Assembly: GCA_002840785.1 (NCBI GenBank)
Contig: PHCH01000013.1
Span: 1-64,000, forward strand
Direction: 5' to 3'
From: Betaproteobacteria bacterium HGW-Betaproteobacteria-4
Lineage (GTDB): Bacteria > Pseudomonadota > Gammaproteobacteria > Burkholderiales > Rhodocyclaceae
DNA length: 64,000 bases
In this document: piece by piece, positions 9,845-31,663 of the stretch
Numbering within the stretch: the first letter of the stretch is position 1
Layout: every line of letters starts with the position of its first letter
Notes under the pieces: generated by a model
Database searches by the model: none
Told to the model about the DNA's origin: nothing
The model's input: the letters and a program-made list of their open reading frames with translations, nothing else
Made by a program: the position numbers and the translations under genes

Positions 9845-9853
9845 AGGCGCTTG

Positions 9854-10506: not shown

Positions 10507-10512
10507 GCCAGC

Positions 10513-11271: not shown

Positions 11272-11346
11272 ACCGATACCCTTTGCATCACGATAATAAC
11301 CACAATTTTAACATGGCATTACCGTCTGCCGTTTGCGGATGGCATA

Positions 11347-12828
11347 TCAGTCCCGTTCCCGCCGCTCGCTCCGTTCAACCCTTTCGGCCCTTTCGGCCCG
11401 CTCGGTGCGTTCGACCTTCTCGACCTTTTCAACTTTCTCGATCTTCTCAGCCTTCTCGACCTTTTCAACTTTTTCGATCTTCTCAGCCTTCTCGACCTTT
11501 TCAGCCTTCTCGATCTTCTCAGCCTTTTCGACCTTCTCAGCCTTTTCGACCTTCTCAGCCTTTTCGGCTTTCTCGGCCTTCTCAGCCTTCTCGGACTTCT
11601 CGGACTTCTCGGACTTCTCGGACTTCTCGGACTTCTCGGACTTCTCGGACTTCTCGGACTTCTCAGCCTTCTCGGCCTTCTCGGCCTTTTCGACGGTCTT
11701 TTCCGTTTCGCTGGTCTCGCTCTTGACGGACGAGAAGCCACGAGCCTGCTCGGATTTTCTTGGCCGGGTATTGCTCCGGTTTTCGGCGCCGCCAAATTCA
11801 AGGTGGCTGACGACGAGCTGGCCCGAGCGTCCAACCTTGGCATCGACAAAAATCCGCCGATTCGGGAGCAGGGCGTTCATTTGTCTTGCCGTGGCATTGG
11901 GCAACGACAGCTCCACCCCGCCGGCCATGACTTTGCCGCGACCGTCGGATGCCTGAACCAGCCCCTCGATCAGGATTCGGCTGGCGCTGTTCTTGAAGCG
12001 ATAGGTGGGGTCGGCAATCACGCTGGTCGGAACCAGTTCGCTGCCGTTCCATTTTCCCTTGACCAAGGCCGCGGCGGTATCGACCGCGCCGGTAACCGCA
12101 ACGCCGTTGACCCGCGACTGCTTTCCTGACGCGGTGACCTGACCCAGGGCGCCAGCTCGCTTGAGACCCGGGCTGGGCTGCACACGCGTTGCGACCAGGG
12201 TGCCATTGGCTCCGGCAAGCGCACTGATTTTGACGAGTTGGCCGACGGCCAGGCCTTTTCCGGGGCCGCGGGTATTGGCATCGATCGCCACGTTCTGACC
12301 GAGAACCTGGATCATCTTGCCGCCACGCGGCAGTTTGGTGATGGGGCCTTCGAGGGCGTTGAGGATGGCGATGTTGCGGGCGTGCAGCCCCTTCGGCGAA
12401 TTGGTGGCGTCGATCGAGATGACCTGGCCGACGGCGAGTTTGTCGGCCGACGAGGGGTCGCCGTTTTCATTGACCGGGACGCCCTGGTCGAAATGAACTT
12501 CGACACCATTGATGCAAACCGAGGCAAAACCGCTGACCACACCAACAATGCCGACCGAAGCGCCATCGGCCAGCGGAGCGCCGGTGCCGCCGATGCCGCC
12601 GCCGTCGGTGCCATTGTTACCGCTGACCGCCGGCGATCCCGTTCCGCCAATGCCGCCGCCATCCTGCCCATCAGTCGTTTCAGCTGGGCTGCCGGTGCCG
12701 CCAATTCCACCAATGCCGGCGCGGGCCTGATGGCTTTTCGCGGGAACTTCCGGGTCGACACAAACCGGAGCCGACCACGCAATCAGCGGGAAGGCAGCGA
12801 TCAGGAGGGTGAGCAGGCTGCGTTTCAT
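11347..12828 (-). CDS. DUF5666 secreted protein with a long EKx-repeat tail
   Basis: A 493-residue protein with a signal peptide (LLTLLIAAFPLIAWSA). A glycine-rich segment follows with three GGIGGTGSP/AP units (residues about 38-83). Next comes a DUF5666-type beta-rich core of repeated 50-60 residue modules (for example KLAVGQVISIDATNSPKG and LAVGQLVKISALAG). The last 114 residues are 38 uninterrupted triplets, 31 EKx then 7 ERx, where x is A, S, V, I, T or R. That tail is extremely charged and predicted to be one long helix. The gene overlaps the DUF6502 gene upstream by four bases. The family function is not known to me; a surface or periplasmic binding role is a guess. Confidence 0.82.
   Translation of the reverse strand: MKRSLLTLLIAAFPLIAWSAPVCVDPEVPAKSHQARAGIGGIGGTGSPAETTDGQDGGGIGGTGSPAVSGNNGTDGGGIGGTGAPLADGASVGIVGVVSGFASVCINGVEVHFDQGVPVNENGDPSSADKLAVGQVISIDATNSPKGLHARNIAILNALEGPITKLPRGGKMIQVLGQNVAIDANTRGPGKGLAVGQLVKISALAGANGTLVATRVQPSPGLKRAGALGQVTASGKQSRVNGVAVTGAVDTAAALVKGKWNGSELVPTSVIADPTYRFKNSASRILIEGLVQASDGRGKVMAGGVELSLPNATARQMNALLPNRRIFVDAKVGRSGQLVVSHLEFGGAENRSNTRPRKSEQARGFSSVKSETSETEKTVEKAEKAEKAEKSEKSEKSEKSEKSEKSEKSEKSEKAEKAEKAEKAEKVEKAEKVEKAEKIEKAEKVEKAEKIEKVEKVEKAEKIEKVEKVEKVERTERAERAERVERSERRERD
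11350..11691. repeat. 9-bp tandem repeat array (EKx coding)
   Basis: Thirty-eight 9-bp units in frame with the DUF5666 gene. Eight consecutive EKS units (about 11592-11660) are almost identical CTCGGACTT units on the plus strand. Expected to be prone to slippage and to vary in length between strains. Confidence 0.9.
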
Positions 12829-13661
12829 TTGTCTGCCGGGGTCTCGGCCACGTCGGTGCTGTAGAAATAGACACCGCAGGTGAATCGTTTGCCTGGGCCG
12901 TTCGCGGACGGGGTGGCGTTTTCGTCCGGTTCGCCGGCCAGGGTGTGAAGTTGGGTCAGCGTCTGCATGCCGAGTTTGGCGGCACGCGCGCGCAATTTTT
13001 CGACCTGGGCTTCGGTCAGTGAGCCGCGATGCACGCTGCGTTCAAACCATGGGCTGGTGGTGGACAGCACGTTGTCGGCTGCGGCAGCGGCATGATCGCC
13101 CAGATTGTGGCCGTAATAGGCCAGCTTTTCTTCCAGTCCTTCGCGGGGGATGAAGGCGTTGCTGCGCAGGACGACTTCATCGGCTGCATTGATGTCGACG
13201 ACGCCAAGGCGCAGCCATTCGTCGAGTACCGAACGTGGCCGGATGTCCTGGCTGACGCTGGCGACGAGGGCCTCGAACGAGGCTTCTCCGGCGCCGCGGG
13301 CGAGTCGGCTGAGCGGCCGGGGCTGGCCGTTTTCGTCTAGCCATTGCGGGGTGGTGATCCAGGTGGCGACGACCTGCGCGCTGAGCGAAATTTTGGGCGG
13401 CAAGTTGGCCTCGACATCGGGCAGTTCGCGCAGACGTTTGACGTCCTTGCGGTGCACGCCGGTGATCAGGCTGATCCGGCTGTCGGTGGAGGCCTTGTTT
13501 TCGAGCCGGAAATCGCGTTCAGCCACTTCGACGAAGACGCGTTTGAGAATTTCGATGGCCATCGGCAGCGTGATTTCGTGGGCCAGCATGACGCGGACGA
13601 TGGGCGAGAGCACACGGTGTATTGCGGCGAGAAGGGCGGATCGGAGTGGTGACTCTGACAT
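12825..13661 (-). CDS. DUF6502 family protein
   Basis: A 278-residue cytoplasmic protein without signal or membrane segments. Its N-terminal third (LRSALLAAIHRVLSPIVRVML, then ISLITGVHRKDVKRLREL) looks like a winged-helix-type fold with a recognition segment. A region of about 100 residues follows that contains SVLDEWLRLGVVD. The gene overlaps the DUF5666 secreted protein by four bases, a pairing I recall in other proteobacteria, so it may regulate or assist that protein. No catalytic motif is recognisable, and the role is unknown. Confidence 0.78.
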   Translation of the reverse strand: MSESPLRSALLAAIHRVLSPIVRVMLAHEITLPMAIEILKRVFVEVAERDFRLENKASTDSRISLITGVHRKDVKRLRELPDVEANLPPKISLSAQVVATWITTPQWLDENGQPRPLSRLARGAGEASFEALVASVSQDIRPRSVLDEWLRLGVVDINAADEVVLRSNAFIPREGLEEKLAYYGHNLGDHAAAAADNVLSTTSPWFERSVHRGSLTEAQVEKLRARAAKLGMQTLTQLHTLAGEPDENATPSANGPGKRFTCGVYFYSTDVAETPADK

Positions 13662-14051
13662 CAGGTTTTGTCGGGAGGTTCTCGGCGGCGAGTGTTGGCA
13701 GGCGTCTGCATTCAGCGTGTCGCCGGGGTGGCCTGGTCAAGTGCCCTGCGGCGATCGCGCCTGGATCGGCGGTCGGTCATGACCAACCCTTCGCTGGTGC
13801 TGTAGGGCGGGAGATGATCGGCCGATATTCTACGTCCCTGGCGTCTTTTCATGAACAGATTTTGCAGCCAGTCGTCGGCTGCATTTTGTCGCACTTTCAA
13901 GCTCGGCTTCCTTTTGCTGGGTTGGTCGACAACGAATCGCATCGAACAGTATTTGGTGTAATTGTGGAATAGTTTCCCACTTTGTAGTCCCGGGGTAAAC
14001 CTGAAAAGGGGGGATTTTGCCGAAATGTCCGGTTAGCCTCGGCCCGACTCC
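13662..14051. other. 390-base stretch without a confident gene
   Basis: The region lies upstream of the DUF6502 gene and downstream of the FAD/Fe-S oxidoreductase gene. One short minus-strand frame (13712-13942) is listed separately at low confidence. No terminator or clear promoter was recognised. Confidence 0.5.
13712..13942 (-). CDS. Possible small basic protein
   Basis: A 76-codon frame encoding a very basic protein that ends with MTDRRSRRDRRRALDQATPATR. Arg-rich tails with RRxxRDRRR appear in several small hypothetical proteins of betaproteobacteria, which is the only support. A shorter start at the internal ATG of MTDRRSRRD is possible. No clear ribosome site. Confidence 0.3.
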   Translation of the reverse strand: MRFVVDQPSKRKPSLKVRQNAADDWLQNLFMKRRQGRRISADHLPPYSTSEGLVMTDRRSRRDRRRALDQATPATR

Positions 14052-15350
14052 TTATTCGCCGTACCGGGTGTCGACCTGTATGCCCATTTTTTTCAGCATG
14101 GGCGTCGGCAGCTCGCCGCCGGCACAAACGATGACGGCATCGTTCGGCCGTTCGAGGATGTCGTCGCCATGTTTGAGGATGACGTTGTCGACACCGATTT
14201 CTGGGACCGTGCTCTCCAGTATTTGTTCAATTTTGTCGTCGGCAATGGCTTCGGCCAGCCGTGTCCGGTTTTTCGGCTTGACCCGGTCGAAGGCCTTGCC
14301 GCGGTAACTCAGTGTGACGCGGGTGCCTGGTTCGTTGGCGATGTCGAGGGCGGCTTCGAGGGCGCTGTCGCCGCCGCCGACGACCAGCACGTTCTTGCCT
14401 TGGTACTGTTCCGCTTCGATCAGCCGATAGACTACCTTGGCCTGTTCTTCGCCCTTGGCGCCGAGCTTGCGCGGTGTGCCGCGGCGCCCGATGGCGAGCA
14501 GTACGTTGGCGGTGGAGTAGCTTGCCTTGTTGGTACGGATCGAGAAAATGCCGTCGTCCGGCGTGATTTCTTCCATGCGCTCACTGAACTGGATGTTGGG
14601 CGTCGCCTTGTCGAGGATGCCCTGCCAGATTTCCATGAGTTCCTCCTTGCTGATTTCGCGAACCTTGATTTCGCCGATCAGCGGCAGGCGCATCGGAGCC
14701 GTCATGACCAGCTTGTTACGCGGATAGTGGTAGGTTGTGCCGCCGAGGGAGTCCTCCTGCTCGATGGTCACGTAGCGGAGTCCGGCCTCCTTGGCGGCGA
14801 GCGACGAGGCGATCCCGGCTGGGCCGGCGCCGATGATCACGAGATCGAGGTCGGCCTTGCCTCGGGGGCGTTTGGTGATGGTCTGGACGGCATGCGTGCC
14901 CTGCCGGATGGCGTTGCGGATGAGGCCCATGCCGCCGAGTTCGCCGGCGATGAAGACGCCAGGGATGTTGGTCTGGAAATCGGGGTCGACCTGCGGAATG
15001 TCCATGCCGCGCTTGGCCGTGCCAAAGACCAGCTTTATGGCGCCGACCGGGCAGGCCGGCGCGCAGGCACCATGGCCGATGCAGTGTGTCGGATTGATCA
15101 GGACGCCCTTGCCCTTGATCACGCCGAGCGCTTTCTCCGGGCAGTTTCGGACGCAGGCGCCGGAACCCATGCAGATCGAGAGGTCGACGACCGGGTGCAG
15201 TGAAGGCGGTTCGGTCAGGCCCGCTTCCTTGGCTTCGTTGAGGACGGCGAGATGGCGCTCGGAAACCTTCTTTTTGGTGCGCTGGTGAAAGGCGGCCGGA
15301 ATGAGGATGAGCAGGGCAGGGAGCAGGTAGTAAATCAGGTCGGACGTCAT
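14052..15350 (-). CDS. Membrane-anchored FAD/Fe-S oxidoreductase (thioredoxin-reductase-like)
   Basis: A 432-residue protein. An N-terminal membrane helix (residues about 5-20) is followed by a ferredoxin-like part with CMGSGACVRNCP and CIGHGACAPACP (about 60-100). The second cysteine of the usual CxxCxxCxxxCP is Ser in the first and His in the second, so the clusters are unusual. An IPGVFIAGELGGMGLI element follows, then a two-dinucleotide-fold flavoprotein with GAGPAGIASS (FAD, about 173-182) and GGGDSALEAA (NAD(P)H, about 325-334). It probably passes electrons between a soluble donor and membrane carriers. It lies divergently from the multiheme cytochrome genes, so an input module for that locus is plausible but unproven. 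It overlaps the next gene upstream by four bases. Confidence 0.82.
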   Translation of the reverse strand: MTSDLIYYLLPALLILIPAAFHQRTKKKVSERHLAVLNEAKEAGLTEPPSLHPVVDLSICMGSGACVRNCPEKALGVIKGKGVLINPTHCIGHGACAPACPVGAIKLVFGTAKRGMDIPQVDPDFQTNIPGVFIAGELGGMGLIRNAIRQGTHAVQTITKRPRGKADLDLVIIGAGPAGIASSLAAKEAGLRYVTIEQEDSLGGTTYHYPRNKLVMTAPMRLPLIGEIKVREISKEELMEIWQGILDKATPNIQFSERMEEITPDDGIFSIRTNKASYSTANVLLAIGRRGTPRKLGAKGEEQAKVVYRLIEAEQYQGKNVLVVGGGDSALEAALDIANEPGTRVTLSYRGKAFDRVKPKNRTRLAEAIADDKIEQILESTVPEIGVDNVILKHGDDILERPNDAVIVCAGGELPTPMLKKMGIQVDTRYGE

Positions 15351-16309
15351 TCGTTTGTGTTCGTCAGCTTGTTTTCGAGGGTATTTACTGTACTCATCGG
15401 ATCTTCGCCCGATTCGTGCTGAACGGCGGCCATTGCTACGGTCAACCGGAAATTTTGGCCAAAATCAAAAGGCGCGAAGGCCTCCCGGATTTCGTCGGCA
15501 AGCTTTGCGGCGCTGTCCAGCGGGGTGTTGGGGAGCAGGATCATGAAGGTGTTTCGATCCCATTGGCACGCCGTGTCCGAGGTGCGCAGGCGTTCGGCAA
15601 TCGCTTCGGCGCAGCGGCACAAGTCCTCGTCGGTGAGCTGGCGATTGTCAGGCAGCGCGATGCGGCTTCCGATCAGCGAGAGCGGCAAGCGGTAGCGGTC
15701 GGAAATGGCCGAAACATGGGCCAGTTCGGCCTCGAAGCATTCGGCCGAGGGCAGTCCGGTCAGCCTGTCGCGCAGGTTCATGCTCGTTTCGGACTGCGCT
15801 GCCGGCGGGCTGGACGCATAGCGCACGAGCAGGGCGACCAGCAGCGACAGAATCAGGTGCTTGTCGAGCCGCTCGTGGTCGCTGGCCAGTTGCCAGGTCA
15901 GTGCGACAAACAGGCCACCGAGCAACAGCCACAACAGAAGCGGCAGGTTCTGGTAGCGCCAGGCCCACCAGGCGGCGACCAGCGGCGCCCAGAACAGCAG
16001 CGTCGAGGCCAGCTCCGAACCGGGATGACCGGTGTTGAAGCGGATGCCGAGGGCGGCCACCAGCAAAACGTAGATCGAGACATCGACCGCCAGGCCGGCG
16101 TGGCGGTCGGCTACCGTCCATCCGGCCTGATGGGCAATCCAGATGAGCAGGAGCGGCAGGCTGACGAGCAGGTAAATCAGGCTCGTGCCGGTCGGCCAGA
16201 GTCTCTGGAATTCGACGGTGGCGATGACGAAAAGACCGAGAAGGCCGCTCATTGATCCGGCCGGGTTGATAAGGCGGGCCTTCGCCGCTTGCACCGGATT
16301 TTCATTCAT
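15347..16309 (-). CDS. Membrane protein with degenerate GGDEF domain
   Basis: A 320-residue protein from ATG 16309 (an upstream ATG at 16336 also exists). About six hydrophobic helices span residues 20-170. A GGDEF-fold domain follows, beginning RDRLTGLPSAECFEAEL. The signature that should be GG(D/E)EF reads WDRNTF, so diguanylate cyclase activity is not expected; it may bind c-di-GMP or act as a scaffold. It is coupled by ATGA to the FAD/Fe-S oxidoreductase gene and divergent from the cytochrome genes. A copy of the dispersed repeat lies in the last part of the domain, encoding FGQNFRLTVAMAA. Confidence 0.8.
   Translation of the reverse strand: MNENPVQAAKARLINPAGSMSGLLGLFVIATVEFQRLWPTGTSLIYLLVSLPLLLIWIAHQAGWTVADRHAGLAVDVSIYVLLVAALGIRFNTGHPGSELASTLLFWAPLVAAWWAWRYQNLPLLLWLLLGGLFVALTWQLASDHERLDKHLILSLLVALLVRYASSPPAAQSETSMNLRDRLTGLPSAECFEAELAHVSAISDRYRLPLSLIGSRIALPDNRQLTDEDLCRCAEAIAERLRTSDTACQWDRNTFMILLPNTPLDSAAKLADEIREAFAPFDFGQNFRLTVAMAAVQHESGEDPMSTVNTLENKLTNTNE
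15435..15470 (+). repeat. Dispersed uptake-like repeat, copy 4 (inside GGDEF-like gene)
   Basis: GCTACGGTCAACCGGAAA, TTTTGGCCAAAATC and AAAA. It lies about 90 bases before the 3' end of the gene and is antisense to it. Confidence 0.85.
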
Positions 16310-16471
16310 CGTTGATTTCCCCCGAACGGCGTGCACCTTGTCATGTAAATTTTTTGCTATCCTTTAATAAGTGTGAAATTTTACCCCGCCGTATGCAAAC
16401 CCGATAGTCTGTCGATGTTTCGGGTTTTCCGGCGGAAACGGCCCGGGGCCGACGACCTTATTTTGGAATAC

Positions 16472-17383
16472 ATGAATACAAGCGCACTTGGTCCAATGAC
16501 GGTGATTTCCCTGGAGGGAGAAGCAAAATCCTCCAGCGAGAAGGTATTTCGCGGCGCCTGGCGCGTGTCGATCGCCGTGCTCGTCTGTTTGCTGCTCTTT
16601 CTTGCCTGGCTGGTCAGGACCGGGGAGCTCTACGATGCCAACTCCGATTTCGCCTACAACATCGGCCTGACCGGCGGTCTGCTGATGCTCAGCCTGCTTC
16701 TCTATCCCTTGCGCAAGCGGATTCATGCCCTTGATCGCCTGGGAAAAATGGAGAGCTGGTTCAAGTTTCACATGGTCGCCGGCATTACCGGTCCGCTCCT
16801 GGTGCTATTTCATTCAACCTTCCGCACCGGCTCGCTGAACGGCGCCATGGCGCTTTACGCCATGCTGCTCGTCGCCTTCAGCGGCATCGTCGGGCGCTTC
16901 ATTTACCGTCACATCCACCGTGGTCTCTACGGCAATCAACTGACGCTGGCCGAAGCCTCGGCCGAACTGAACGAGTGCGCCGACAACGTGCGCTCGGTCT
17001 ATGCCTTGCGACCCGATATCGAGCCGCGGCTCAAGGCCTTTCGCGATGCCGCCTTTGACCCGGCCGGCTCCCGTTTGGCCCGCGCCTGGCGCTTCGTCAC
17101 CTTGCGCTGGCGGAGCCGCAGACTGGCCAGGCAAATCCGTAGCGATGCCAAGAGTGCCTTGCGCCGGCAGTTTCGCAAACAGGGGGGCAAGCGTCGGGAA
17201 GTCATCGTCAGCTACCGCCTGGCTCGCGAGCAGATCGACCGCTATCTCGACTCCGTCGTCAAGGCGTCACAACTTTCCGTTTGGGAAAGGCTGTTTTCCT
17301 TTTGGCACATCGTGCATATCCCCTTCCTTTATTTGCTGGTTTTTAGTGGAGTCGTCCATGTCGTTGCGGTCCACATGTATTAA
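16472..17383 (+). CDS. Integral membrane b-type cytochrome-like protein
   Basis: Four hydrophobic segments are visible: VSIAVLVCLLLFLAWLV, IGLTGGLLMLSLLLYPL, one around FHMVAGITGPLLVLFH, and the C-terminal IPFLYLLVFSGVVHVVAVH. The third segment has two His 14 residues apart, and the last helix region has several His (FWHIVHIP and VVHVVAVH). This suggests bis-His binding of two b hemes within the membrane. A basic, probably cytoplasmic loop of about 120 residues with many Arg separates the last helices. The start at 16472 (303 residues) is favoured by a nearby GGA; the frame is open back to a GTG at 16373. It overlaps the 24-heme cytochrome gene by 26 bases, so the two are coupled. Likely a quinol-side partner feeding the cytochromes; inferred. 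Confidence 0.75.
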   Translation: MNTSALGPMTVISLEGEAKSSSEKVFRGAWRVSIAVLVCLLLFLAWLVRTGELYDANSDFAYNIGLTGGLLMLSLLLYPLRKRIHALDRLGKMESWFKFHMVAGITGPLLVLFHSTFRTGSLNGAMALYAMLLVAFSGIVGRFIYRHIHRGLYGNQLTLAEASAELNECADNVRSVYALRPDIEPRLKAFRDAAFDPAGSRLARAWRFVTLRWRSRRLARQIRSDAKSALRRQFRKQGGKRREVIVSYRLAREQIDRYLDSVVKASQLSVWERLFSFWHIVHIPFLYLLVFSGVVHVVAVHMY

Positions 17384-19190
17384 CCGGCTGTTTTCGCTTC
17401 TCACGCTGATCGTCGCGCTCGCCTTTGCCGGCGCGGCGGCGGCCGAGTCGATTGAAAAAGTGCTGATGCCCGGCCAGGTGATCAGCGGCCACGCCAAGTA
17501 CGAACACGATTGCGAGCAGTGTCACCAGCGCTTCGACAAGAAGGCTCAGACCAAACTATGCCTCGATTGCCACAAGAACGTGGCGGCTGACGTTCGCGCC
17601 AGAAGCGGTCTGCACGGCAAGCTCGAAGACAACAATTGCCGTGCCTGCCACACCGAGCACAAGGGGCGCGGGGCCGATATTGCGCCCATCGACAAGAAGA
17701 AATTCGACCACTCAAGGACCGACTTCAAGCTGCTCGGCGCGCACAAGGAAAGCAAGTGCGAGAGCTGTCACCTGGCCAAGCGGAAATATCGCGAGGCGCC
17801 CAGGCTGTGCAACGACTGCCACAAGAAAATCGACGACGAAAAGGGCCACAAGGGCCATCTCGGCACCAAGTGCGAGAACTGCCATAACGAGAAAAAGTGG
17901 ACAGAAACCACCTTCGATCACGAAAAGACCAAGTTCTCGCTGCTCGGCGGCAAGCACGCCGACGTCAAGTGCAAGGAGTGTCACGAGGACAAGACCTACC
18001 AAAAGACGCCGCTGACCTGTAACGGCTGTCACAAGAAAATCGACCAGGAAAAGGGGCACAAGGGGCGTTACGGCATCAAGTGCGAGTCCTGCCACAACGA
18101 CAAGGGGTGGAAGGAGATCATCTTCGACCACGACAAGGACACCAAATATGACCTCAAGGGCAAGCACAGCCAGGCCAAGTGCAACACCTGTCACCTGCCG
18201 GAGAAGGGTTATATCTATAAGGTAAAGCTGCCCACCAAATGTTTCGCTTGCCACAAGAAGGATGACCAGGAGAAAGGTCACCGTGGCGACCTGGGCGAGA
18301 AGTGCGAGAGCTGCCATAACGAACGTGGCTGGAAAAACGCCAACTTCGATCACGACGAAACCGATTTTCCATTGCGCGACAAGCACAAGGATGCCAAGTG
18401 CGACACCTGCCACAAGGGTGGCGTGAGCGGTCCCAAGGCCAAGAAGTTGAAGGTGGATACCGCGTGTTACGCCTGTCACCGCAAAAATGACGACGAAAAG
18501 GGTCACAAGGGGCGCTATGGCGAAAAGTGTGGCACATGCCACACCGCCAAGGACTGGAAGACCAGCATCTTCAATCATGACAAGGAAACCAAGTACCTGC
18601 TCAAGGGCAAGCACCGCGAAACCAAGTGCGACGCCTGCCACTTGCCGGTCAAGGGGAATATCTACAAGACCAGGCTGGAAGAGACCTGCATTGCCTGTCA
18701 CAAGAAAGACGACAAGCACAAAGGCCAGCTTGGTAACAAGTGCGAAACCTGTCACGACGAAAAGAAATGGAAAGATACCCCCTACGACCACAACAAGTCG
18801 CGCTTCGCATTGACCGGTAGCCACGCCAAGGTCGAGTGCAAGAAATGCCACCTGACACCTGCCTTCAAGGATGCGCCGCTAAGCTGCAACGGTTGCCATG
18901 CGAAGGACGACAAGCACAAGGGCGGCTACGGCAAAAAATGTGAAACCTGCCACGCCACCGGGACCTGGAAAACCTGGGACTTCGATCATTCGACAACGCA
19001 TTTCCGGCTCGAGGGCGGGCACAGCAACCTTGATTGCAAGGAGTGCCACAAGGAGTCGAAATCGGGGCCGCGCAAGCCGGGACGGGCCTGCATCGCCTGC
19101 CATGTGAGGGATGACGTGCACAACGGCGCCTTCGGCAGTCAGTGCGAAAGCTGTCACGTCGCGGCCAATTGGAAGAAGGTCAGGCGCTAG
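17358..19190 (+). CDS. 24-heme c-type cytochrome (periplasmic, Lys-rich)
   Basis: A 610-residue protein starting at ATG 17358 with GGAG seven bases upstream. The signal peptide ends near GAAAAES. I count 24 CXXCH motifs, about one per 25 residues, arranged as eight near-repeats of three hemes. Each unit runs roughly CxxCHKKxDxEKGHKGxxGxKCExCHNxxxW, then FDH, then LxGKH before the next CxxCH. The conserved extra histidines (GHKG, FDH, GKH) can supply the second axial ligand. The protein is strongly basic. It has no lipobox or anchor, so it should be a soluble periplasmic electron carrier between the membrane b-cytochrome and the outer-membrane components encoded next. Confidence 0.9.
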   Translation: MSLRSTCINRLFSLLTLIVALAFAGAAAAESIEKVLMPGQVISGHAKYEHDCEQCHQRFDKKAQTKLCLDCHKNVAADVRARSGLHGKLEDNNCRACHTEHKGRGADIAPIDKKKFDHSRTDFKLLGAHKESKCESCHLAKRKYREAPRLCNDCHKKIDDEKGHKGHLGTKCENCHNEKKWTETTFDHEKTKFSLLGGKHADVKCKECHEDKTYQKTPLTCNGCHKKIDQEKGHKGRYGIKCESCHNDKGWKEIIFDHDKDTKYDLKGKHSQAKCNTCHLPEKGYIYKVKLPTKCFACHKKDDQEKGHRGDLGEKCESCHNERGWKNANFDHDETDFPLRDKHKDAKCDTCHKGGVSGPKAKKLKVDTACYACHRKNDDEKGHKGRYGEKCGTCHTAKDWKTSIFNHDKETKYLLKGKHRETKCDACHLPVKGNIYKTRLEETCIACHKKDDKHKGQLGNKCETCHDEKKWKDTPYDHNKSRFALTGSHAKVECKKCHLTPAFKDAPLSCNGCHAKDDKHKGGYGKKCETCHATGTWKTWDFDHSTTHFRLEGGHSNLDCKECHKESKSGPRKPGRACIACHVRDDVHNGAFGSQCESCHVAANWKKVRR

Positions 19191-19232
19191 CCAGATGCAT
19201 AATTTGTGTGATAAATTCCCGCAAAATGTTTT

Positions 19233-19246
19233 TTGACTTGTATCAA
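19233..19246 (+). promoter_or_regulatory. FNR/Dnr-like site before the giant cytochrome gene
   Basis: TTGAC-TTGT-ATCAA differs from the FNR consensus TTGAT-N4-ATCAA at one base. It lies in the 130-base gap before the giant cytochrome gene, centred about 81 bases before its GTG. If the site is at -41.5, transcription would start near 19281. Confidence 0.5.
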
Positions 19247-19320
19247 CGCGTCGCCAAATTCGAGCTTCCTCAAGCTGGGCTACGAGAATTGATTAACCGG
19301 TTTAACGAGGTACCCCGCCT

Positions 19321-22300
19321 GTGACCTACCTTGCTCGTCTACTCCTTGTCGTGCTCGCCGCTGCCGCTCTCCTGTTCGGGCAATGGGGCAGCGCTTTCGC
19401 ACAGACGCAAGCCGATAGCGCACAGAACCTCAGCTTTGATCACAACAAGACCGGCTACATACTCGATAACGCGCACAAATCGGTTAATTGCGAGACCTGC
19501 CACACTTCGGGTGTTTTCCGTGGTACGCCGCGTGCTTGTGCCACCTGTCATGCCGGCGCCGGAGCCAGGGCGCCGGGCAAGCCGGCCACCCATATTCCGA
19601 CAACGGCGGCCTGCGATTCCTGCCATCGCCCGGGGGCTACCAACTGGAGCGAAAAGCCAACCGGATTTGTTAAGGGGGCATCAGGGCACGCGATCAATCC
19701 GATGCTCGGCGTTACGGAAACCAATTGCCAGACCTGTCACAACGGCGCCTTCATCGGCGCCAATGCGCTGACCAAGCCGGCGACCCACATTCAAACCTCG
19801 ACAGCCTGCAGCACCTGTCACAACACGACTGCATGGACGCCAGCCACCAACCCCCATGCCGGCGTCCAGCCGGGAACTTGTGCCACCTGTCACAACAGCG
19901 TCAATGCAACCGGTAAAACGGTCGATCACATTCCTACTGCTGCCACTTGCGATACCTGTCACAAGAATTTCTCGACCTTCGTGCCGGCCAGAATGGATCA
20001 CTCCGGCTTGAACGGTCAGTGCTCGACCTGTCACTCGGGACGTTTCTCCTCGCAGAGTGCCCAAAGCAAGCCGGCGACCCATCTGTCGACAGCTCAGCAA
20101 TGCGATACCTGCCACCTGTCAACGACGTCCTGGGCTGTTGCAACGTTCGATCACGCAAATCGGCCGCAGAATAGTCAGTGCTCAGATTGTCATACGCCGG
20201 GCGGGTCGGGCTTGAGCAAGCCGGCCAACCATGTGCCGACCACCGCCACCTGCGATACCTGCCACACCAATTTTGTGTCGTTCAGTCCCGTACAGATGAA
20301 TCATGGCGGGACGGCTGCCAATTGCTCATCGTGTCACAACGGTGCTTTCATTTCGGTCAATGCTCTCGGTAAATCCGGACGCCATATTCCCACTGTCGTT
20401 CAGTGCGATTCCTGTCATACCAGCGGCTTCGTTTCCTGGTCGCCGGCAAAAATGAACCATACCGGCCTCGATGGGCAGTGTGCCAGCTGTCACAGCGGCG
20501 GTTACCTGCCGCAGAATGCCCAGGCCAAGACGGCAACACATATTTCAACGACGGCCCAGTGTGATAGCTGTCATAGCTCGACGGCAACCTGGGCGACCGC
20601 TACCTTCAACCACGCCAACGCCAGCCCCGCGGTAGCCGGGCGCTGCTCCTCCTGTCACAACGGGGCGAATGCCCTGGGCAAGTCGGTCAACCACATTCCG
20701 ACAGCCGGGCAGTGCGATAGCTGCCACAACAATTTCACAGCCTTCTCGTCGGTCGCCATGAGTCATGCCGGTACGGTGGGGACGTGTAACAGCTGTCATA
20801 ACGGCAACTTTGCTTTCGCCAATGCACAGGCCAAGACGGCGGTCCATATCCCAACCGGTGCGCAGTGCGATACCTGTCATACCGGGGGCTTCAACGCCTG
20901 GTCGCCGGCGGTGATGAACCATGCCGGCCTGCGCGGTCAGTGTTCGACGTGTCACGGTGGTGGCTATGTCTCGCAAAATGCGCTCGACAAGCCGCTGACC
21001 CATGTCAGTACAACAGCTCAGTGTGACACCTGTCACGGCAGCACCACGTCGTGGGCTACCGCTAGCTACAGCCACGATGCGTCGGCGACTGGCCGGTGCG
21101 ATAGCTGTCATGGCGTGACGGCTCTGGGCAAGTCGGCAAGGCATATCCCGACAGTGACGACTGCGGCGAATTGCGGCAGTTGTCATAACAACTACGCCTC
21201 CTTCAAGCCGGCGGCAATGGATCACGCAGCAACTGGCGGCGCGGCATGTGCGACCTGCCACGGCGGCGCCTACGTTTCGCAGAATGCTCTGGCCAAGCCC
21301 GCAACCCATATCCAGACCTCCGCGGCTTGCGACAGTTGTCACGGAAGTAGCAATTTCACGTCTTGGGCGGGAGGTTCGTTCAACCATGCTGCCGCGACGC
21401 CATCGGTTCTCGGTCGTTGTGCCAGTTGTCACATAGATGCCAATTCCTTCGGAAAATCCAATCTTCATATTCCGACCGCAAGTTCCTGCGAAAACTGTCA
21501 TGGGACGAGCTATACCGCCTTCAAGCCGGCCAGGATGAACCATGCGCAAACTAGCGAAACCTGCGCTACCTGCCATAGCGGCGCCTATACCGGGCAGGGG
21601 GCTTTTGCCAAGCCGGCCAACCACATTCCGGCAACGGCGGCTTGCGATACTTGCCACCAGAACAGCAACTTCCTGTCCTGGGCGCCATCATCGATGGATC
21701 ATACGGGCCAGACGCAGTGCTCAACCTGCCACGGCGGTGCATACATTGCGCAAAATGCCCAGGCGAAGCCGAGCACGCACGTATCGACCAACGCGCAATG
21801 TGCGAGTTCAGGGTGTCACACGGCACCGACGGGTACGTCGCAGGGGTCGTGGCGGGTTGGTTCCATTCCGAATCACGCCTTGTTTACCCCGTCTGTCGCT
21901 GTCGGCGACCATAGCTGCAATGGCTGCCACAATGGAACAGCAGGCAAGGGCATTGCCAAGCCGGCTACTCACATTCCGACGACGGCGTTCTGCGATACCT
22001 GCCACACCAACTTCAATGCCTTCGCACCAGCCGGCATGAGCCATGCAGGAATTACCAACGGCTGTGCCAGTTGCCATGGCGGTGCGCATGTTGCACTGAA
22101 CGCGCAGGCCAAGCCAAGCAGTCACATTCCGACCAGCAGTTCTTGTGAGACCTGCCATGGTTCGACCAACTTCACTGCGTTCAAGCCGGCCAGCATGAAC
22201 CATTCGACAGCCACCGGCGTCGCTTGCGCAACCTGCCATGGCGGTGCCTATACGGGGCAAGGCGCCTCCGCCAAGCCGGTCGGGCATATTCCGGTAACGG

Positions 22301-24231
22301 GGGCGTGCGATTCTTGCCACAGGAACAGCAATTTCGTGACCTGGAGTCCGTCCAGTATGGATCATGCGGGTCTGACCCAATGCTCGACCTGCCATAACGG
22401 GAGCTATCTGGCACAGAATGCCCAGGCGAAGTCGGTTTCGCACCAGGCAACGAATGCCCAGTGTTCCGATTGCCACAAATCGACGTCAAGTTGGGCGACT
22501 ACGACCCAGGATCACTCGAAATTGACACCGCCTGCGGTGATTGGCGGCCACACCTGTTCTACCAACTGTCACAACGGGACCCCCAACAAAGGCTTGGCCA
22601 AGCTGGGTACGCATATCCCGACGACGGCCCAGTGTGATAACTGCCACACCAATTTCGCGGCTTTCGCACCGGCAACAATGAGCCATGCCGGAACGGCCGG
22701 CACCTGTATCAGTTGTCATGGCGGTGGGTATGTGTCGGTGAATGCACAAGCCAAGCACGCGACGCACATTGTGACGACGCAGTCTTGCGATACTTGCCAC
22801 GGCACGATCGCCTGGAAGCCAGCCACCAATTTTCATGCTGGCGTGGCCACCGGAACGTGTGCGACATGCCACAACGGCAGCAACGCCACCGGCAAAAACC
22901 TGACCCACATCCCGACTTCGCTGGCGTGCGACAGTTGTCACAATAATTTCGCTGCGTTTTCTCCGGCCCAGATGAACCATGCCGGTACATCCAGCCAGTG
23001 TTCAAGCTGTCACAGCGGCAACCATGTCGCCGTAAATGCCTTGGCCAAGCCGCTGACTCACGTCAGCACGACTGTCCAGTGCGATACGTGCCACAAATCG
23101 ACGACCACATGGACCGGGGCGATCTATGTCCACCCGGTTTCGGCAACCGGTACTTGTTCCAACTGCCACAACGGATCGGTTCTCGGCGCTGAGGGCAAGG
23201 GCGCAGGCCACGTCGCGACGACCGCCCAGTGCGACACCTGTCATAAATCGACGACGGTCTGGACCGGGGCTACATTTGCCCATGCCGCATCAGCCGTCGG
23301 AACCTGCTCCAATTGTCACAACGGGGCATACGCCCCGGGCAAGTCGAGCGGCCATATTCCGACGACCCTGCAGTGTGACAACTGCCACAAGAACTACACG
23401 GCATTCCGGCCGGCCAACATGAGCCACACCGGAACGACTGGGCAGTGTTTGTCCTGCCATAACGGCGGATACACCAGCGTCAATGCGCAAGCCAAAAATA
23501 CCGGCCACCTCGCCACCAGCGATTCCTGCGACGCATGCCACCGCACGACTGCCTGGCTACCCGCCAGCTTTGCGCATACCCCGGCCCAATTGGCGGGCAA
23601 GACCTGTGTGAGTTGTCATAACGGGACGACGGCTACGGGCAAGCCGGCGCTGCATATTCCGACGTCCGAGGCGTGCAGCGTTTGCCATCGTACCGGCGGG
23701 ACATGGGTGCCGGTCATAACGCCGTATGCCCATACCGGGGTGACGACAGGTTCGTGTACCAACTGTCACGTGAACAGCTATCCCGGGATGTCTTACAAGC
23801 CGTTGGCCAATCACGTACCGACGACGGCCAGTTGCGATGCCTGCCATACGAAGACGAGCTGGTCCGCGCTTGCCGCCTTCAACCATGTCGGGGCGACGAA
23901 TTGCCAGACTTGCCATAACGGCATGTATGTCGGAGTCAAAGGCAAGCATACAACCCATATCCCGACGACCCTCGCCGGTTTGCCAGGCAACGAATGTTCG
24001 CTCTGTCACGTCGGTACCACTTCGTTTATATCGGTATCAAGAATGAACCACGGGAGCATCCAGACGAACTGCAAGACCTGTCATGCCAGCACGACGGCTT
24101 ATGACGTGGGTGGTGCCGAGAAGATCAGGTTGGGGGGGCACGAAGGCTCAAAAGCGACGGACGACTGTTCCCAGAGCGGTTGTCACAAGCCCCTGGGAAG
24201 AAAAGGGTCGCCCTACACAAAGTGGGACTGA
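19321..24231 (+). CDS. Giant multiheme cytochrome c, 61 heme-binding motifs
   Basis: A 1636-residue protein from a GTG at 19321, with a Sec signal peptide (LLLVVLAAAALLFGQWGSAFA). I count 58 CXXCH motifs plus one CX3CH (CSTNCH, near 22560) and two CX4CH (CASSGCH near 21810, CSQSGCH at the C-terminus): 61 in all, one per about 27 residues. The chain is a repeat of two-heme units of roughly 50 residues. Each unit has KPATHIPTTAxCDxCH, then FxPAxMxHAGxxGxCxxCHNGxY and NAxAK. A histidine lies upstream of nearly every heme motif (THIPT or MxH), fitting bis-His ligation. Linkers are rich in Ser, Thr, Ala and Asn, unlike the Lys-rich 24-heme protein, suggesting exposure to the medium. It has no lipobox or anchor. 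A long-range electron conductor, periplasmic or extracellular, is inferred. Confidence 0.93.
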   Translation: MTYLARLLLVVLAAAALLFGQWGSAFAQTQADSAQNLSFDHNKTGYILDNAHKSVNCETCHTSGVFRGTPRACATCHAGAGARAPGKPATHIPTTAACDSCHRPGATNWSEKPTGFVKGASGHAINPMLGVTETNCQTCHNGAFIGANALTKPATHIQTSTACSTCHNTTAWTPATNPHAGVQPGTCATCHNSVNATGKTVDHIPTAATCDTCHKNFSTFVPARMDHSGLNGQCSTCHSGRFSSQSAQSKPATHLSTAQQCDTCHLSTTSWAVATFDHANRPQNSQCSDCHTPGGSGLSKPANHVPTTATCDTCHTNFVSFSPVQMNHGGTAANCSSCHNGAFISVNALGKSGRHIPTVVQCDSCHTSGFVSWSPAKMNHTGLDGQCASCHSGGYLPQNAQAKTATHISTTAQCDSCHSSTATWATATFNHANASPAVAGRCSSCHNGANALGKSVNHIPTAGQCDSCHNNFTAFSSVAMSHAGTVGTCNSCHNGNFAFANAQAKTAVHIPTGAQCDTCHTGGFNAWSPAVMNHAGLRGQCSTCHGGGYVSQNALDKPLTHVSTTAQCDTCHGSTTSWATASYSHDASATGRCDSCHGVTALGKSARHIPTVTTAANCGSCHNNYASFKPAAMDHAATGGAACATCHGGAYVSQNALAKPATHIQTSAACDSCHGSSNFTSWAGGSFNHAAATPSVLGRCASCHIDANSFGKSNLHIPTASSCENCHGTSYTAFKPARMNHAQTSETCATCHSGAYTGQGAFAKPANHIPATAACDTCHQNSNFLSWAPSSMDHTGQTQCSTCHGGAYIAQNAQAKPSTHVSTNAQCASSGCHTAPTGTSQGSWRVGSIPNHALFTPSVAVGDHSCNGCHNGTAGKGIAKPATHIPTTAFCDTCHTNFNAFAPAGMSHAGITNGCASCHGGAHVALNAQAKPSSHIPTSSSCETCHGSTNFTAFKPASMNHSTATGVACATCHGGAYTGQGASAKPVGHIPVTGACDSCHRNSNFVTWSPSSMDHAGLTQCSTCHNGSYLAQNAQAKSVSHQATNAQCSDCHKSTSSWATTTQDHSKLTPPAVIGGHTCSTNCHNGTPNKGLAKLGTHIPTTAQCDNCHTNFAAFAPATMSHAGTAGTCISCHGGGYVSVNAQAKHATHIVTTQSCDTCHGTIAWKPATNFHAGVATGTCATCHNGSNATGKNLTHIPTSLACDSCHNNFAAFSPAQMNHAGTSSQCSSCHSGNHVAVNALAKPLTHVSTTVQCDTCHKSTTTWTGAIYVHPVSATGTCSNCHNGSVLGAEGKGAGHVATTAQCDTCHKSTTVWTGATFAHAASAVGTCSNCHNGAYAPGKSSGHIPTTLQCDNCHKNYTAFRPANMSHTGTTGQCLSCHNGGYTSVNAQAKNTGHLATSDSCDACHRTTAWLPASFAHTPAQLAGKTCVSCHNGTTATGKPALHIPTSEACSVCHRTGGTWVPVITPYAHTGVTTGSCTNCHVNSYPGMSYKPLANHVPTTASCDACHTKTSWSALAAFNHVGATNCQTCHNGMYVGVKGKHTTHIPTTLAGLPGNECSLCHVGTTSFISVSRMNHGSIQTNCKTCHASTTAYDVGGAEKIRLGGHEGSKATDDCSQSGCHKPLGRKGSPYTKWD

Positions 24232-24270
24232 TTTGTGGGGCGAGAAATTGGCACGATTTCGCGGTAAATC

Positions 24271-26646
24271 ATGAAGAAAGTGAAAATGGCTGGGCGTATC
24301 TATAAAAATGCCGTGCTGTCGGCAATGGTGGCGAAAGTCGCCCGGTTTGTTGTGGTCTTTTCTTTGCTGGCGAGTGCCAATGCCTTCGCCGCGATCATCG
24401 AAACGATCGATGTTACGCGGGTCGGCGATCAGGCTGAGGTAACTATCCGCTTTACGACGGAGATTCAATACACCCGGCATACCCCCGGTGACGAAGGGAA
24501 GTTCCTGCGTATTTTCTTTCGGCTGACCAAACCCGGAGTTTCGGAAAGCGAGTTGATGCAGGAAGTACGACGGTCGCCGAAAAATGATCTGCTTCCACCG
24601 TTTACCGTGGCCTATCCCGAACTGGTAAACGGCATGTTGATTACCTTTGCCAAGCCGACAAAGTTTATTGTCCGGGCAGGCGATGACAGTCGTAGCATCG
24701 TCGTCATGGTCCCCGCACCGCCACCGGCCAAGGGCAAGGATGTCGCCGTTGCCAAAGGCAAGCCCGCCGAAAAGCCGGCGCCTGTCGCCATCGAGACGCC
24801 TGCGGTGGCACCCGTTGTCGCCGATGTGCCGGCAGGTTCGCCGATTGCTCCGGCGCAGACGCCGGACGCCAGCAAGCCCGAGGCTGCTCCCGTCTTGTCT
24901 GCCGAGAAAGTCGAAGAAATGGCGCATGCCTTTCTGCTCGACGGACAGGAGGCTTTCGAGAAGGGGGATTATCCGAAGGCGATCAATCGCATGAACCGCA
25001 TTCTGAGTCTTCCGCAAAATGAACGGACCAAATCGGCGCAGGCGCTGATTGGCGAGGCGCGCGAGAAAAACGGTGAAATCGCCAAGGCGCGTGCCGAATA
25101 CAATCTTTATCTGAAGCTTTATCCCGATTCGCCCGAGGTGCCGAAAATCAAGCAGCAGCTCGCCGCCTTGCCCGCCGTCGATACGGTTCGCCGGCCGCGG
25201 GCGCGCGTTGTTCGTGATGACAGACCCGCCGAATGGACGGTCTACGGCAGCCTTTCCTCTTATTTCTTTGGCGGTCAGTCGAAGCAGGATGACGGGCCGA
25301 TGAAGCGTGACCAGGAATCGCTGGTGTCATCGCTGAATTTCAGCGCCCGACTGCGGGATTCGGTGACCGATACACGCTTTGTATTCCGCGATACCGACAG
25401 CCGGAATTTCATGCGGCCGAGCCGCAACTACAATCGCATCTACTCCGCCTATGCCGAACGGACCGATCGCGAGGTTGGCTATTTCGTCCGCGTCGGGCGG
25501 CAGAACCCGAATGGCGCCGGCGTGCTTGAGCGCTTTGACGGGATCACCGGCAGCTATAACCTGACTCCCGACTTCAAGCTTGGGGCGGTTTATGGTGAGG
25601 CGGTCGAGTTCGGCTCGCCGTTCAAGAAAAATTTTTATGGCGGCAATGTTGAGCTGGCTCCGCAGGTCGGGTGGCCAGGGGCAAGTCTTTATGGCATCGA
25701 GCAGAATATCGACGGGATTCTGAATCGTCGTGCCGTTGGTTCGGAGTTCCGTTACTTCGACGGTCAGGTTACGGCATTCGGCCTGGTCGATTATGACGTT
25801 CTCTACAAGGGCGTAAACATCGGCATGGCGCAGGCTAACTACCTCGACAAATGGAACAACAATTACTTTATTTCCTACGATTACCGGCAGAGTCCGACCT
25901 ATAGCCTGACCAATGCACTGTCGACCACAGGATATTCGACGGTGACCGATCTGGTTGGCAATGTCGGGGTCAGCGGGGCACGCCAACTGGTTTCGGAAAT
26001 GACGGCACTGTCTACGATGTTCGCGACCGGGGTGACGATTCCGGTCGGAGAGCGCTGGCAGTTTGGCGCCGATTACCGGATGTCGGAAATTTCCGGCACC
26101 AATGCCACCATTCCGCTTGCCCAGATGTGCAAGGAAATCCAGGACGATGCCAATCCCAATGATCCGCTATGCGTCGATGGGCCGCGCGGCACGCTGCGGA
26201 TTTCCGAAATGGGTATCTGTCAGGTCGACAGTTATGATCTGGTTACGCGAACCTGTCGTGCCACATCGGATGCTTCCGGTCGCACCAACATGTATTCGGC
26301 GCAGGCTATCGGAACCAACCTGTTTGTTCCGAACGGGGTGGGGGTGGTCTATCTTGGTTATATTGCCGGCCCCAACTACACCGGCCAGAACCTGGGTTTG
26401 AGCTATATCTTCCCGTTTTATGAAAACTGGCGACTGGAAAACAATGCCCGCTACTACACCCAGAAAAGCGATAGTGGCCAGAACATGACCCAGTTTTCAC
26501 CGAGCATGAAGCTGGTGTATCAGTGGCGGAACAGTCTGTCTCTGGAAGGGGAAGTCGGTTACAGTGAGTCGAACAATACAGGGACTACGGTCAGCAAGAA
26601 CAGGCGCGAATATCTCTATCTCGGCCTCCGTTGGGACTACCGCTAG
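24271..26646 (+). CDS. TPR-containing outer-membrane beta-barrel protein
   Basis: Up to 791 residues from ATG 24271. The signal peptide core VARFVVVFSLLASANAFA suggests that internal starts (24286 or 24325) may be used. Residues about 42-150 form a beta-rich AMIN-like domain. A Pro/Ala/Lys-rich linker follows, then TPR-type helices (about 225-300: AFEKGDYPKAINRMNRIL, KARAEYNLYLKLYPDSPE). From about 320 to the end there are repeated amphipathic strands with aromatic girdles, closing in YLYLGLRWDYR with a terminal aromatic/Arg, as in outer-membrane barrels. It starts 39 bases after the giant cytochrome gene. The position suggests either a pore through which the cytochromes connect (functionally like MtrB/PioB, but I see no sequence match) or a secretion/assembly partner. 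Confidence 0.8.
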   Translation: MKKVKMAGRIYKNAVLSAMVAKVARFVVVFSLLASANAFAAIIETIDVTRVGDQAEVTIRFTTEIQYTRHTPGDEGKFLRIFFRLTKPGVSESELMQEVRRSPKNDLLPPFTVAYPELVNGMLITFAKPTKFIVRAGDDSRSIVVMVPAPPPAKGKDVAVAKGKPAEKPAPVAIETPAVAPVVADVPAGSPIAPAQTPDASKPEAAPVLSAEKVEEMAHAFLLDGQEAFEKGDYPKAINRMNRILSLPQNERTKSAQALIGEAREKNGEIAKARAEYNLYLKLYPDSPEVPKIKQQLAALPAVDTVRRPRARVVRDDRPAEWTVYGSLSSYFFGGQSKQDDGPMKRDQESLVSSLNFSARLRDSVTDTRFVFRDTDSRNFMRPSRNYNRIYSAYAERTDREVGYFVRVGRQNPNGAGVLERFDGITGSYNLTPDFKLGAVYGEAVEFGSPFKKNFYGGNVELAPQVGWPGASLYGIEQNIDGILNRRAVGSEFRYFDGQVTAFGLVDYDVLYKGVNIGMAQANYLDKWNNNYFISYDYRQSPTYSLTNALSTTGYSTVTDLVGNVGVSGARQLVSEMTALSTMFATGVTIPVGERWQFGADYRMSEISGTNATIPLAQMCKEIQDDANPNDPLCVDGPRGTLRISEMGICQVDSYDLVTRTCRATSDASGRTNMYSAQAIGTNLFVPNGVGVVYLGYIAGPNYTGQNLGLSYIFPFYENWRLENNARYYTQKSDSGQNMTQFSPSMKLVYQWRNSLSLEGEVGYSESNNTGTTVSKNRREYLYLGLRWDYR

Positions 26647-26680
26647 GCATTAATTTTCATCCAGCCCGTTGGCTTGATTT

Positions 26681-26702
26681 CTGGCAACTTCCGGGTTGCC
26701 AG
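26681..26702. terminator. Intergenic hairpin after the barrel gene
   Basis: CTGGCAAC and GTTGCCAG form a perfect 8-bp stem with a 6-base loop. No T-run follows, so it is a weak terminator at best and may be a stability element between the barrel and CcmI-like genes. Confidence 0.4.
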
Positions 26703-26749
26703 ACTCATTTGCAGCACTATCAAATTCAAAATATTTCGGTGACTCCCAT

Positions 26750-27973
26750 ATGACTTTTGTTTACATCGTTGTGGCCAGTATTGCGCTATCCCTGCTTGTG
26801 CTGTGGGGGCTTGGAAAATATGCGGCCAACAAATCGACCGCCGTCGACAAGGTCGACATCGCAGCGGCGCTGCGCGAATTGTTGCTGGCCAAGGCGGAAG
26901 GCCGTATTGATCAGGCCGAATTCGAGCGGCAACAGGCGCAACTCCACGCGGCCGTTCTCGAGCCTGCGCAGGCGCCGGCAGGATTTCAACTGCCTGGAAA
27001 AAAACTCGGCTTGGTCGCTGGCGGGGTGGTTTTGGCCATCGCCGTGGCTGCCATCTGGGTTGCCTCGCCTGCCGGCGATGCGCCGAAAACGGCCGTCGTC
27101 AGCGAGTCGGTTGGCGTCCCGGAAGAAAAGAATAGCGTGCAGGCGAGCAGTGGTGGCGACCTCAATACGGTCGTCAAGAAGCTGGCTGACAAGATGGCTA
27201 AGGACCCGAACAACGGGGAAGGCTGGCTGTTGCTGGCCAAGACCTACAGCGAACTGCGCCGCCACGGCGAGGCCGACGCAGCCTACGCCAAGGCCTCGGC
27301 ACTGATTGCGCTGGATGCGCAGGCGCTGGCCGACTGGGCGGATGCCCATGTGATGACCAAGGATCGCCAATGGGATGATGCGGCGAGCAAGATCGTCAAG
27401 CGTGCCCTGGCGGCCGATCCAAAACACGTCAAGGCGTTGGCCCTGGCAGGTAGTGAGGCTTTCAGCCGGGGCGACTACAAGGCTGCCATCGATTTCTGGA
27501 AGCGCATGAAGGCTGCTGCACCGGCGGATTCAATGGACAGCAAGCTGGCGGATGCCAACATTGCCGAAGCCAACGCGATGCTGACCGGCAAGAAGCCTGC
27601 TCCGGTTGCGGCTGCCGAGCCGGCGGTGACCGTTGGTGCGGTGGCCGGGGTGGTCACGCTGAGTCCGAAACTGAAGGGCAAGGTGGCCGCCGGCGATACG
27701 CTGTTCGTTACCGCGAAGGCATTGGAAGGAAATGGTCCGCCGCTGGCGGTGTGGCGTTACCAGGGTTCGGATTTTCCGATTGAGTTTCGCCTGGATGACA
27801 GCTTGGCCATCATGCCGGGACGCACGATTTCGCAGTTTTCCGAAGTGCTCGTGACGGCCAAGATTTCGAAGAGCGGCAGCGCCGAGCCGGCCAAGGGTGA
27901 CCTGCTGGCGGCACCGGTCAAAGCCCGGCTGGGCAATACGACGCTGGTCGTGGAGCTGAACGCGGAGCGCTGA
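26750..27973 (+). CDS. CcmI-like cytochrome c biogenesis factor with TPR domain
   Basis: A 407-residue protein from ATG 26750 (an upstream frame extension to 26696 is unlikely). It shows the CcmI pattern: a membrane helix at residues 4-20, a coiled segment of about 50 residues (AALRELLLAKAEGRIDQAEFERQQ), and a second helix (about 82-105). TPR repeats follow (about 125-260: NNGEGWLLLAKTYSELRRHGEADAAYAKA), then a C-terminal beta domain (about 290-405). CcmI presents apocytochromes to the CcmF/H heme ligation machinery. Its place at the end of a cluster encoding 85 heme motifs suggests a dedicated or extra assembly factor. It stops directly against the convergent next gene (27973/27974). Confidence 0.83.
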   Translation: MTFVYIVVASIALSLLVLWGLGKYAANKSTAVDKVDIAAALRELLLAKAEGRIDQAEFERQQAQLHAAVLEPAQAPAGFQLPGKKLGLVAGGVVLAIAVAAIWVASPAGDAPKTAVVSESVGVPEEKNSVQASSGGDLNTVVKKLADKMAKDPNNGEGWLLLAKTYSELRRHGEADAAYAKASALIALDAQALADWADAHVMTKDRQWDDAASKIVKRALAADPKHVKALALAGSEAFSRGDYKAAIDFWKRMKAAAPADSMDSKLADANIAEANAMLTGKKPAPVAAAEPAVTVGAVAGVVTLSPKLKGKVAAGDTLFVTAKALEGNGPPLAVWRYQGSDFPIEFRLDDSLAIMPGRTISQFSEVLVTAKISKSGSAEPAKGDLLAAPVKARLGNTTLVVELNAER

Positions 27974-31660: not shown

Positions 31661-31663
31661 GAT

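Follow-up and report, generated by a model that had tools for sequence, protein, structure and literature searches.

The MtrCAB/MtoAB systems and the DmsE-type decaheme cytochromes share with porin-cytochrome cluster 3 (PCC3) the principle of combining a porin with cytochromes, but they contain decaheme proteins, whereas the cytochrome described here carries 61 heme-binding motifs. PCC3 itself was described in PMC5566968 from Alpha-, Beta-, and Gammaproteobacteria. The description comprises a porin, an extracellular cytochrome (eMHC) and a periplasmic cytochrome (pMHC) that both carry very many hemes, and an inner-membrane protein (IMP) with two WX3HX13H motifs; the extracellular cytochromes are repetitive and rich in T/S/A/G, and their motif numbers reach 85, with a median of 34. 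The locus analyzed here is alike in all of these features and differs in one respect, as the published text lists these four parts and names no flavoprotein. The PCC3 clusters of Gallionellaceae and Sideroxydans (PMC10734462, PMC8788666, and PMC12442390) are also alike in their parts and in a pMHC with 21, 24, or 27 hemes, but their extracellular cytochromes have 10 to 35 hemes. In the Leptothrix group, PCC3 subunits with 10 to 57 motifs were reported (PMC13386937). The putative clusters of humic-lake Bacteroidetes and other bacteria (PMC6344600) likewise combine porins with multiheme cytochromes of up to 51 motifs, but they were recognized from the arrangement of their genes and lack homology to known porin-cytochrome clusters. 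The large cytochromes of ANME archaea (PMC9012536), which have up to 86 motifs, resemble the eMHC in heme number per chain; in contrast to it they are archaeal and often carry S-layer domains, and the two are set side by side by description only.

The window, as the term is used here, is the whole stretch of 64,000 nucleotides that was analyzed (contig PHCH01000013.1 of Betaproteobacteria bacterium HGW-Betaproteobacteria-4, positions 1 to 64,000). The features of the locus are as follows.

9944..27973, no strand: block of about 18 kb, absent as a whole from three PCC3-negative congeners (locus comparison)
14052..15350, minus strand: membrane-anchored, circularly permuted oxidoreductase with ferredoxin and FAD/NAD(P) domains (the flavoprotein), proposed inner-end partner
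15347..16336, minus strand: GGDEF-domain membrane protein; 4-bp overlap with the flavoprotein gene; homologue in fewer loci
16472..17383, plus strand: PCC3 inner-membrane protein, 303 residues, two WX3HX13H motifs and SGxxG (motif search, alignment)
17346..19190, plus strand: predicted periplasmic cytochrome of PCC3, 24 CXXCH motifs; start at GTG 17346 or ATG 17358
19321..24231, plus strand: predicted extracellular cytochrome of PCC3, 61 motifs, GTG start, 1636 residues
24271..26646, plus strand: outer-membrane beta-barrel protein (porin) with a TPR domain, 791 residues (AlphaFold2, Foldseek)
26696..27973, plus strand: CcmI/CycH-type cytochrome c maturation protein; start possibly at the internal ATG 26750

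The genes for the IMP, the 24-heme cytochrome, the 61-heme cytochrome, the 791-residue barrel protein, and the CcmI-type protein were all on the same (+) strand. Together, the first four match the parts described in PMC5566968: a porin, a cytochrome within the range of 21 to 27 hemes, an IMP of about 300 residues with the characteristic motifs, and a second many-heme cytochrome rich in T/S/A/G repeats (61 motifs, 46% of residues). Hence, the 61-heme protein is almost certainly the extracellular cytochrome of a PCC3 cluster, and it is a typical, if large, member of this known bacterial electron-wire system. Rather than standing alone, it is one part of a multi-protein cluster. In the case of the IMP, the residues of both WX3HX13H motifs and of SGxxG were invariant in seven of seven aligned rows, and a crude hydropathy count gave three to five transmembrane helices for the IMPs of six related loci (the PCC3 description gives five). 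A comparison of the IMP with solved structures returned a single match at chance level (E of 2). The AlphaFold2 model of the porin, which was of moderate confidence (mean pLDDT, 60.7), combined TPR helices with some 22 long strands; the 50 Foldseek matches listed were all outer-membrane barrels (best E, 4.6e-11), with low TM-scores.

The frame at 19321-24231 contained 58 CX2CH, one CX3CH, and two CX4CH motifs, exactly as first counted. A chance origin of the 61 motifs is rejected, as 500 shuffles of the residues gave a mean of 2.2 and a maximum of 10 CX2-4CH starts. All 122 cysteines of the protein were inside heme motifs, and its 128 histidines comprised 61 proximal residues and 67 others, a number sufficient for one distal ligand per heme if the predicted motifs are occupied. 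A histidine was located 2 to 13 residues ahead of the first cysteine of each motif, and the spacing was 7 residues in 38 of the 61; in the case of motif 2, the preceding histidine was the proximal histidine of motif 1, so this motif had no candidate of its own. In an alignment of a 16-motif stretch (21 rows drawn from seven proteins and therefore not independent), the motif cysteines and proximal histidines were invariant throughout, and the candidate distal histidine was invariant at 15 of the 16 motifs. The eMHC was composed of 46% T/S/A/G and 8% K/D/E/R, and its N terminus looked by eye like the Sec signal peptide noted earlier, with a hydrophobic run ending in AFA.

A concern raised in the preliminary description was that the repeat number might be an assembly artefact. 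The longest exact direct repeat in the eMHC gene was 21 bp, no tandem array was detected at a score of 40, and the related loci L007, L008, and L009, which are from metagenome-assembled genomes, had 61 motifs each (best-segment identities of 96%, 93%, and 75%). For these reasons we rejected an artefact, and the count of 61 stands.

The same description had proposed a molecular wire displayed outside the cell. This proposal is in line with the PCC3 model published in PMC5566968 and with the cluster found here, and literature prediction and composition both point to an extracellular eMHC. The protein might instead serve mainly as an electron store, a capacitor role that was raised in PMC10734462, or be a secreted or periplasmic heme-rich protein and not a continuous surface wire. 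The eMHC has no lipobox, as no cysteine lies outside the motifs, and the continuity of its heme chain is itself presumed, which would suit such a role; the neighboring gene for a barrel protein and the conserved histidine ligands between motifs argue for a wire, and we consider the storage role improbable. AlphaFold2 modeling of eMHC residues 141-548 (16 motifs) with the 21-row alignment yielded a mean pLDDT of 40.4, so no heme-heme distances were taken from it; an earlier 44-row alignment had been set aside as too gappy (703 columns).

Searches with the eMHC against solved structures gave three weak matches (best, 26.4 bits), and nothing was found on plasmids at an E of 1e-30 or below. The NCBIfam model TIGR03508 (258 positions), which describes the DmsE family, scored 196.1 bits against a cut-off of 192.2, but the score was a sum over nine repeated stretches of the 61-motif protein, and a decaheme identity with about ten hemes was rejected. 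A match to the DnaJ model PF00684 was likewise treated as an effect of repeats or of the cysteine pattern.

The two cytochromes of PCC3 differed sharply in how much their heme numbers varied. In 26 clusters in which both were complete, the number of pMHC motifs was 24 in 23 clusters and otherwise 27 (two clusters) or 21 (one cluster), with a coefficient of variation of 0.04, whereas the eMHC had 11 to 107 motifs with a median of 57 (coefficient of variation, 0.55). This set omits loci in which a cytochrome was cut by a contig or stretch end (L013, L014, L022-L025, L028, L037, L043, L045, L046, L052, and L058), L047 with its eMHC split over three frames, stretches without an eMHC (L029-L032, L034, L035, and L038), L036, which had no cytochrome with at least six motifs, and L020 and L021, which were on the same contigs as L010 and L012; the second, 13-motif cytochrome of L051 was also left aside. 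Periplasmic numbers of 21, 24, and 27 next to extracellular numbers of 10 to 35 were already given in PMC10734462, and the contrast across 26 complete clusters goes beyond the published text of the PCC3 papers. With a published maximum of 85, up to 57 motifs in the Leptothrix group, and 11 to 107 in the clusters compared here, the view that 61 hemes are exceptional for a betaproteobacterium is not supported.

The pMHC of the window, which is presumably periplasmic, appeared by eye to consist of eight three-heme units, and such units would account for 18, 21, 24, and 27 hemes. A strict multiple-of-three rule was contradicted by L028 and by the Emticicia cluster described below, both with 23; the pMHC of L013 had 26 motifs in a frame that was cut at its start. 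Extracellular cytochromes can grow by cassettes: the eMHC of L013 contained 10.5 copies of a 318-bp unit with four motifs, and that of L044 contained 22.5 copies of a 141-bp unit with two motifs. The eMHC of L011, with 107 motifs, has more than the largest extracellular cytochrome of PMC5566968 (85) and an ANME-2c protein in PMC9012536 (86), but we claim no record for it.

Several variants were observed among the loci. The inner half of PCC3 (IMP, a shorter pMHC, and the flavoprotein) was found alone, in stretches without an eMHC, with an 18-heme pMHC in L030, L031, L032, L034, and L038 and with a 21-heme pMHC in L029 and L035; the stretches of L029 and L030 were short. The extracellular cytochrome spread over three frames at 8639-11793 of L047 represents an assembly error or a pseudogene. 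The second cytochrome of L051 was at 11305-12474, beyond the porin gene of the cluster. At 2793-3103 of L011, 34.6 copies of a 9-bp repeat were present within an open frame matching a DUF5666 gene.

Comparison with congeners indicated that the cluster is part of a larger unit. In the PCC3-negative congeners L060, L061, and L062, homologues of 7242-9943 and of 27974 onward were about 2 to 3 kb apart, compared with 18 kb in the window; in three further PCC3-negative congeners, the right-hand genes alone were seen. The block also includes DUF5666 and DUF6502 genes at 11347-13661, and DUF6502 was found in none of 12 PCC3-negative congeners in a search without a positive control of its own. The histidine kinase at 29037-30389, a neighbor of the block, had matches in 12 of 12 PCC3-negative congeners, in contrast to the flavoprotein. 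The distribution of PCC3 in the genus is patchy, as the porin was present in 5 of 25 genomes in one sample that included the genome analyzed here. Outside the block, genes for a cytochrome b-type protein and a dihaem cytochrome c (DHC) at 31055-32125 were located beside a response regulator and a histidine kinase and also occurred in the PCC3-negative congeners examined. The window also carried NosD- and NosZ-type genes at 43932-49787, and nitrous oxide reduction is likely in the same organism.

In the window, the flavoprotein is encoded on the strand opposite to the PCC3 genes, which counts against the joint machine proposed below. The protein was nevertheless a constant companion of the IMP. 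Genomes with an IMP match above 200 bits and genomes with a flavoprotein match at an E of 1e-60 or below were identical in the order sample (21 of 399) and in the phylum sample (6 of 398), where absence was judged from the best four to five candidates per genome. The threshold of 200 bits reflects the order sample, in which the 37 genomes that passed 1e-10 comprised 21 with at least 209 bits and 16 with 41 to 53 bits; none of these 16 carried the flavoprotein. In the family sample, where the search covered genomes carrying the IMP, the flavoprotein was present in all 15 such genomes other than our own. Overall, all 38 genomes with a strong IMP match (own, family, order, and phylum) carried it, although the genomes are related to one another and the samples overlap, so that hypergeometric values for the co-occurrence overstate independence. 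When the 15 family genomes with the IMP were taken together with four congeners that have the porin, 18 of these 19 carried it, and the sole exception (G001) was a congener at 70% completeness. Of the 36 stretches that the IMP had served to fetch, 33 contained the gene, and in G536 and G650 it was present on another contig. A plasmid of Emticicia (Bacteroidota) encoded on one strand, in this order, CcsA, an IMP with both motifs, the flavoprotein, and cytochromes with 23 and 40 hemes, as well as a 538-residue protein that was barrel-like by eye. The co-occurrence of the IMP and the flavoprotein goes beyond the published text of the PCC3 papers. Specifically, literature searches and the texts of PMC5566968, PMC10734462, and PMC12442390, supplements aside, revealed no PCC3 flavoprotein, which may be listed in the supplements, and flavin was mentioned in the text of PMC5566968 solely for shuttles and in references. 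Given these data, we regard the flavoprotein as very probably a functional part of PCC3.

Besides its N-terminal helix, the flavoprotein has two domains, one ferredoxin-like and one of the FAD/NAD(P) type, and the latter is similar to thioredoxin-reductase-like enzymes and ferredoxin-NADP reductases; homology suggests that it uses NAD(P)H. In 22 of 22 aligned rows, the segment that normally closes the thioredoxin-reductase fold preceded GxGxxG and GGGDSA. When the sequence was rotated, the match to chain 7a76_A rose from 82.4 to 90.7 bits and its reach was extended from chain residue 274 to 323, as expected of a circular permutation; the top-ranked chains rose, and the lower-ranked 2vdc, 6s6s, 4o5q, and 1hyu dropped. 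The second Fe-S motif had an invariant histidine at the position of the second cysteine (22 of 22 rows), and the second position of the first motif was serine in 17 of 22 rows and alanine, glycine, or cysteine in the others, so the cluster ligation may be unusual. The residues RTKKK after the N-terminal helix suggest that the catalytic part is cytoplasmic.

One could propose that the flavoprotein and the IMP supply reductant for cytochrome c maturation (heme iron or cysteine thiols) instead of feeding a wire. A maturation gene was often near (CcmI in the window and CcsA in Emticicia), and the FAD domain is thioredoxin-reductase-like, but this domain has a single cysteine and therefore no C-x-x-C, the ferredoxin-like domain suits one-electron transfer, and just 13 of the 36 IMP-fetched stretches, some of which were cut, contained a CcmI homologue. 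We consider such a role unlikely. The IMP can be compared with the membrane domain of NADPH oxidase and ferric reductase, an analogy drawn in PMC5566968. The resemblance lies in two HX13H pairs for two b hemes and in an NAD(P)H-type flavin enzyme as the partner of the membrane protein. In contrast to those enzymes, seven IMP members had no match to the Pfam ferric reductase domain (FRD; PF01794) among matches at an E of 1 or below, and in PCC3 the flavin enzyme is a chain of its own, thioredoxin-reductase-like and equipped with a ferredoxin domain.

We narrowly favor a PCC3 machine that has a 61-heme surface arm, is fed by the flavoprotein, and sends electrons outward. In such a machine, NAD(P)H would reduce the FAD and then the Fe-S clusters of the membrane-anchored flavoprotein, the Fe-S clusters would reduce the two b hemes of the IMP, and these would move electrons through the inner membrane. 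From there, the 24-heme pMHC would take them across the periplasm; after passing the outer membrane at the porin, they would follow the 61 hemes of the eMHC to an acceptor outside the cell. The outward, NAD(P)H-driven direction is suggested by the likely cytoplasmic side of the flavoprotein together with general energetics, and we give it an even chance.

The published model (PMC5566968) runs the other way: electrons from Fe(II) or minerals would flow inward via the eMHC, porin, and pMHC, and the IMP would reduce quinone. Under this model, the flavoprotein would be an accessory or the end of an uphill reduction of NAD(P)+. The flavin enzyme occurs as consistently as the IMP, although using Fe(II) to reduce NAD(P)+ directly, against the membrane potential, is unfavorable, and this argues against uptake. 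Consistent with uptake, PCC3 was found in iron oxidizers (PMC10734462 and PMC13386937), and transcripts for the IMP of PCC3 copy 2 increased in Sideroxydans CL21 during iron oxidation (PMC12442390), a rise that does not fit outward flow. In strain ES-1, on the other hand, expression of both PCC3 clusters was lower on Fe(II), and the study questioned whether they contribute to Fe(II) oxidation in that strain (PMC8788666), which fits outward flow and not uptake. In ES-1 proteomes with citrate-Fe and magnetite, the extracellular PCC3 cytochrome Slit_1448 had a value of 0 in the table rows consulted (PMC12016527), which counts against our favored reading. The passages of the PCC3 literature used here described no PCC3 protein with a tested function. 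Taken together, we consider inward flow a less probable, but not negligible, explanation.

Most discussion of PCC3 treats it as a putative iron oxidase whose mechanism is unknown, and a flavin enzyme in every PCC3-IMP genome found provides a specific reason to test outward flow. More tentatively, and with somewhat less than even confidence, we propose that PCC3 may be a self-contained, NAD(P)H-driven exporter that is common to Pseudomonadota and Bacteroidota. A split, NADPH-oxidase-like gate would be formed by the circularly permuted flavoprotein, with its invariant histidine in place of one Fe-S cysteine, and the two-b-heme IMP; the pMHC of about 24 hemes would be a ruler of periplasm length, and the surface wire would lengthen freely, evolving by two- or four-heme cassettes. 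The near-fixed periplasmic and free extracellular heme numbers offer a natural way to test the idea that cytochromes are wires that span distances.
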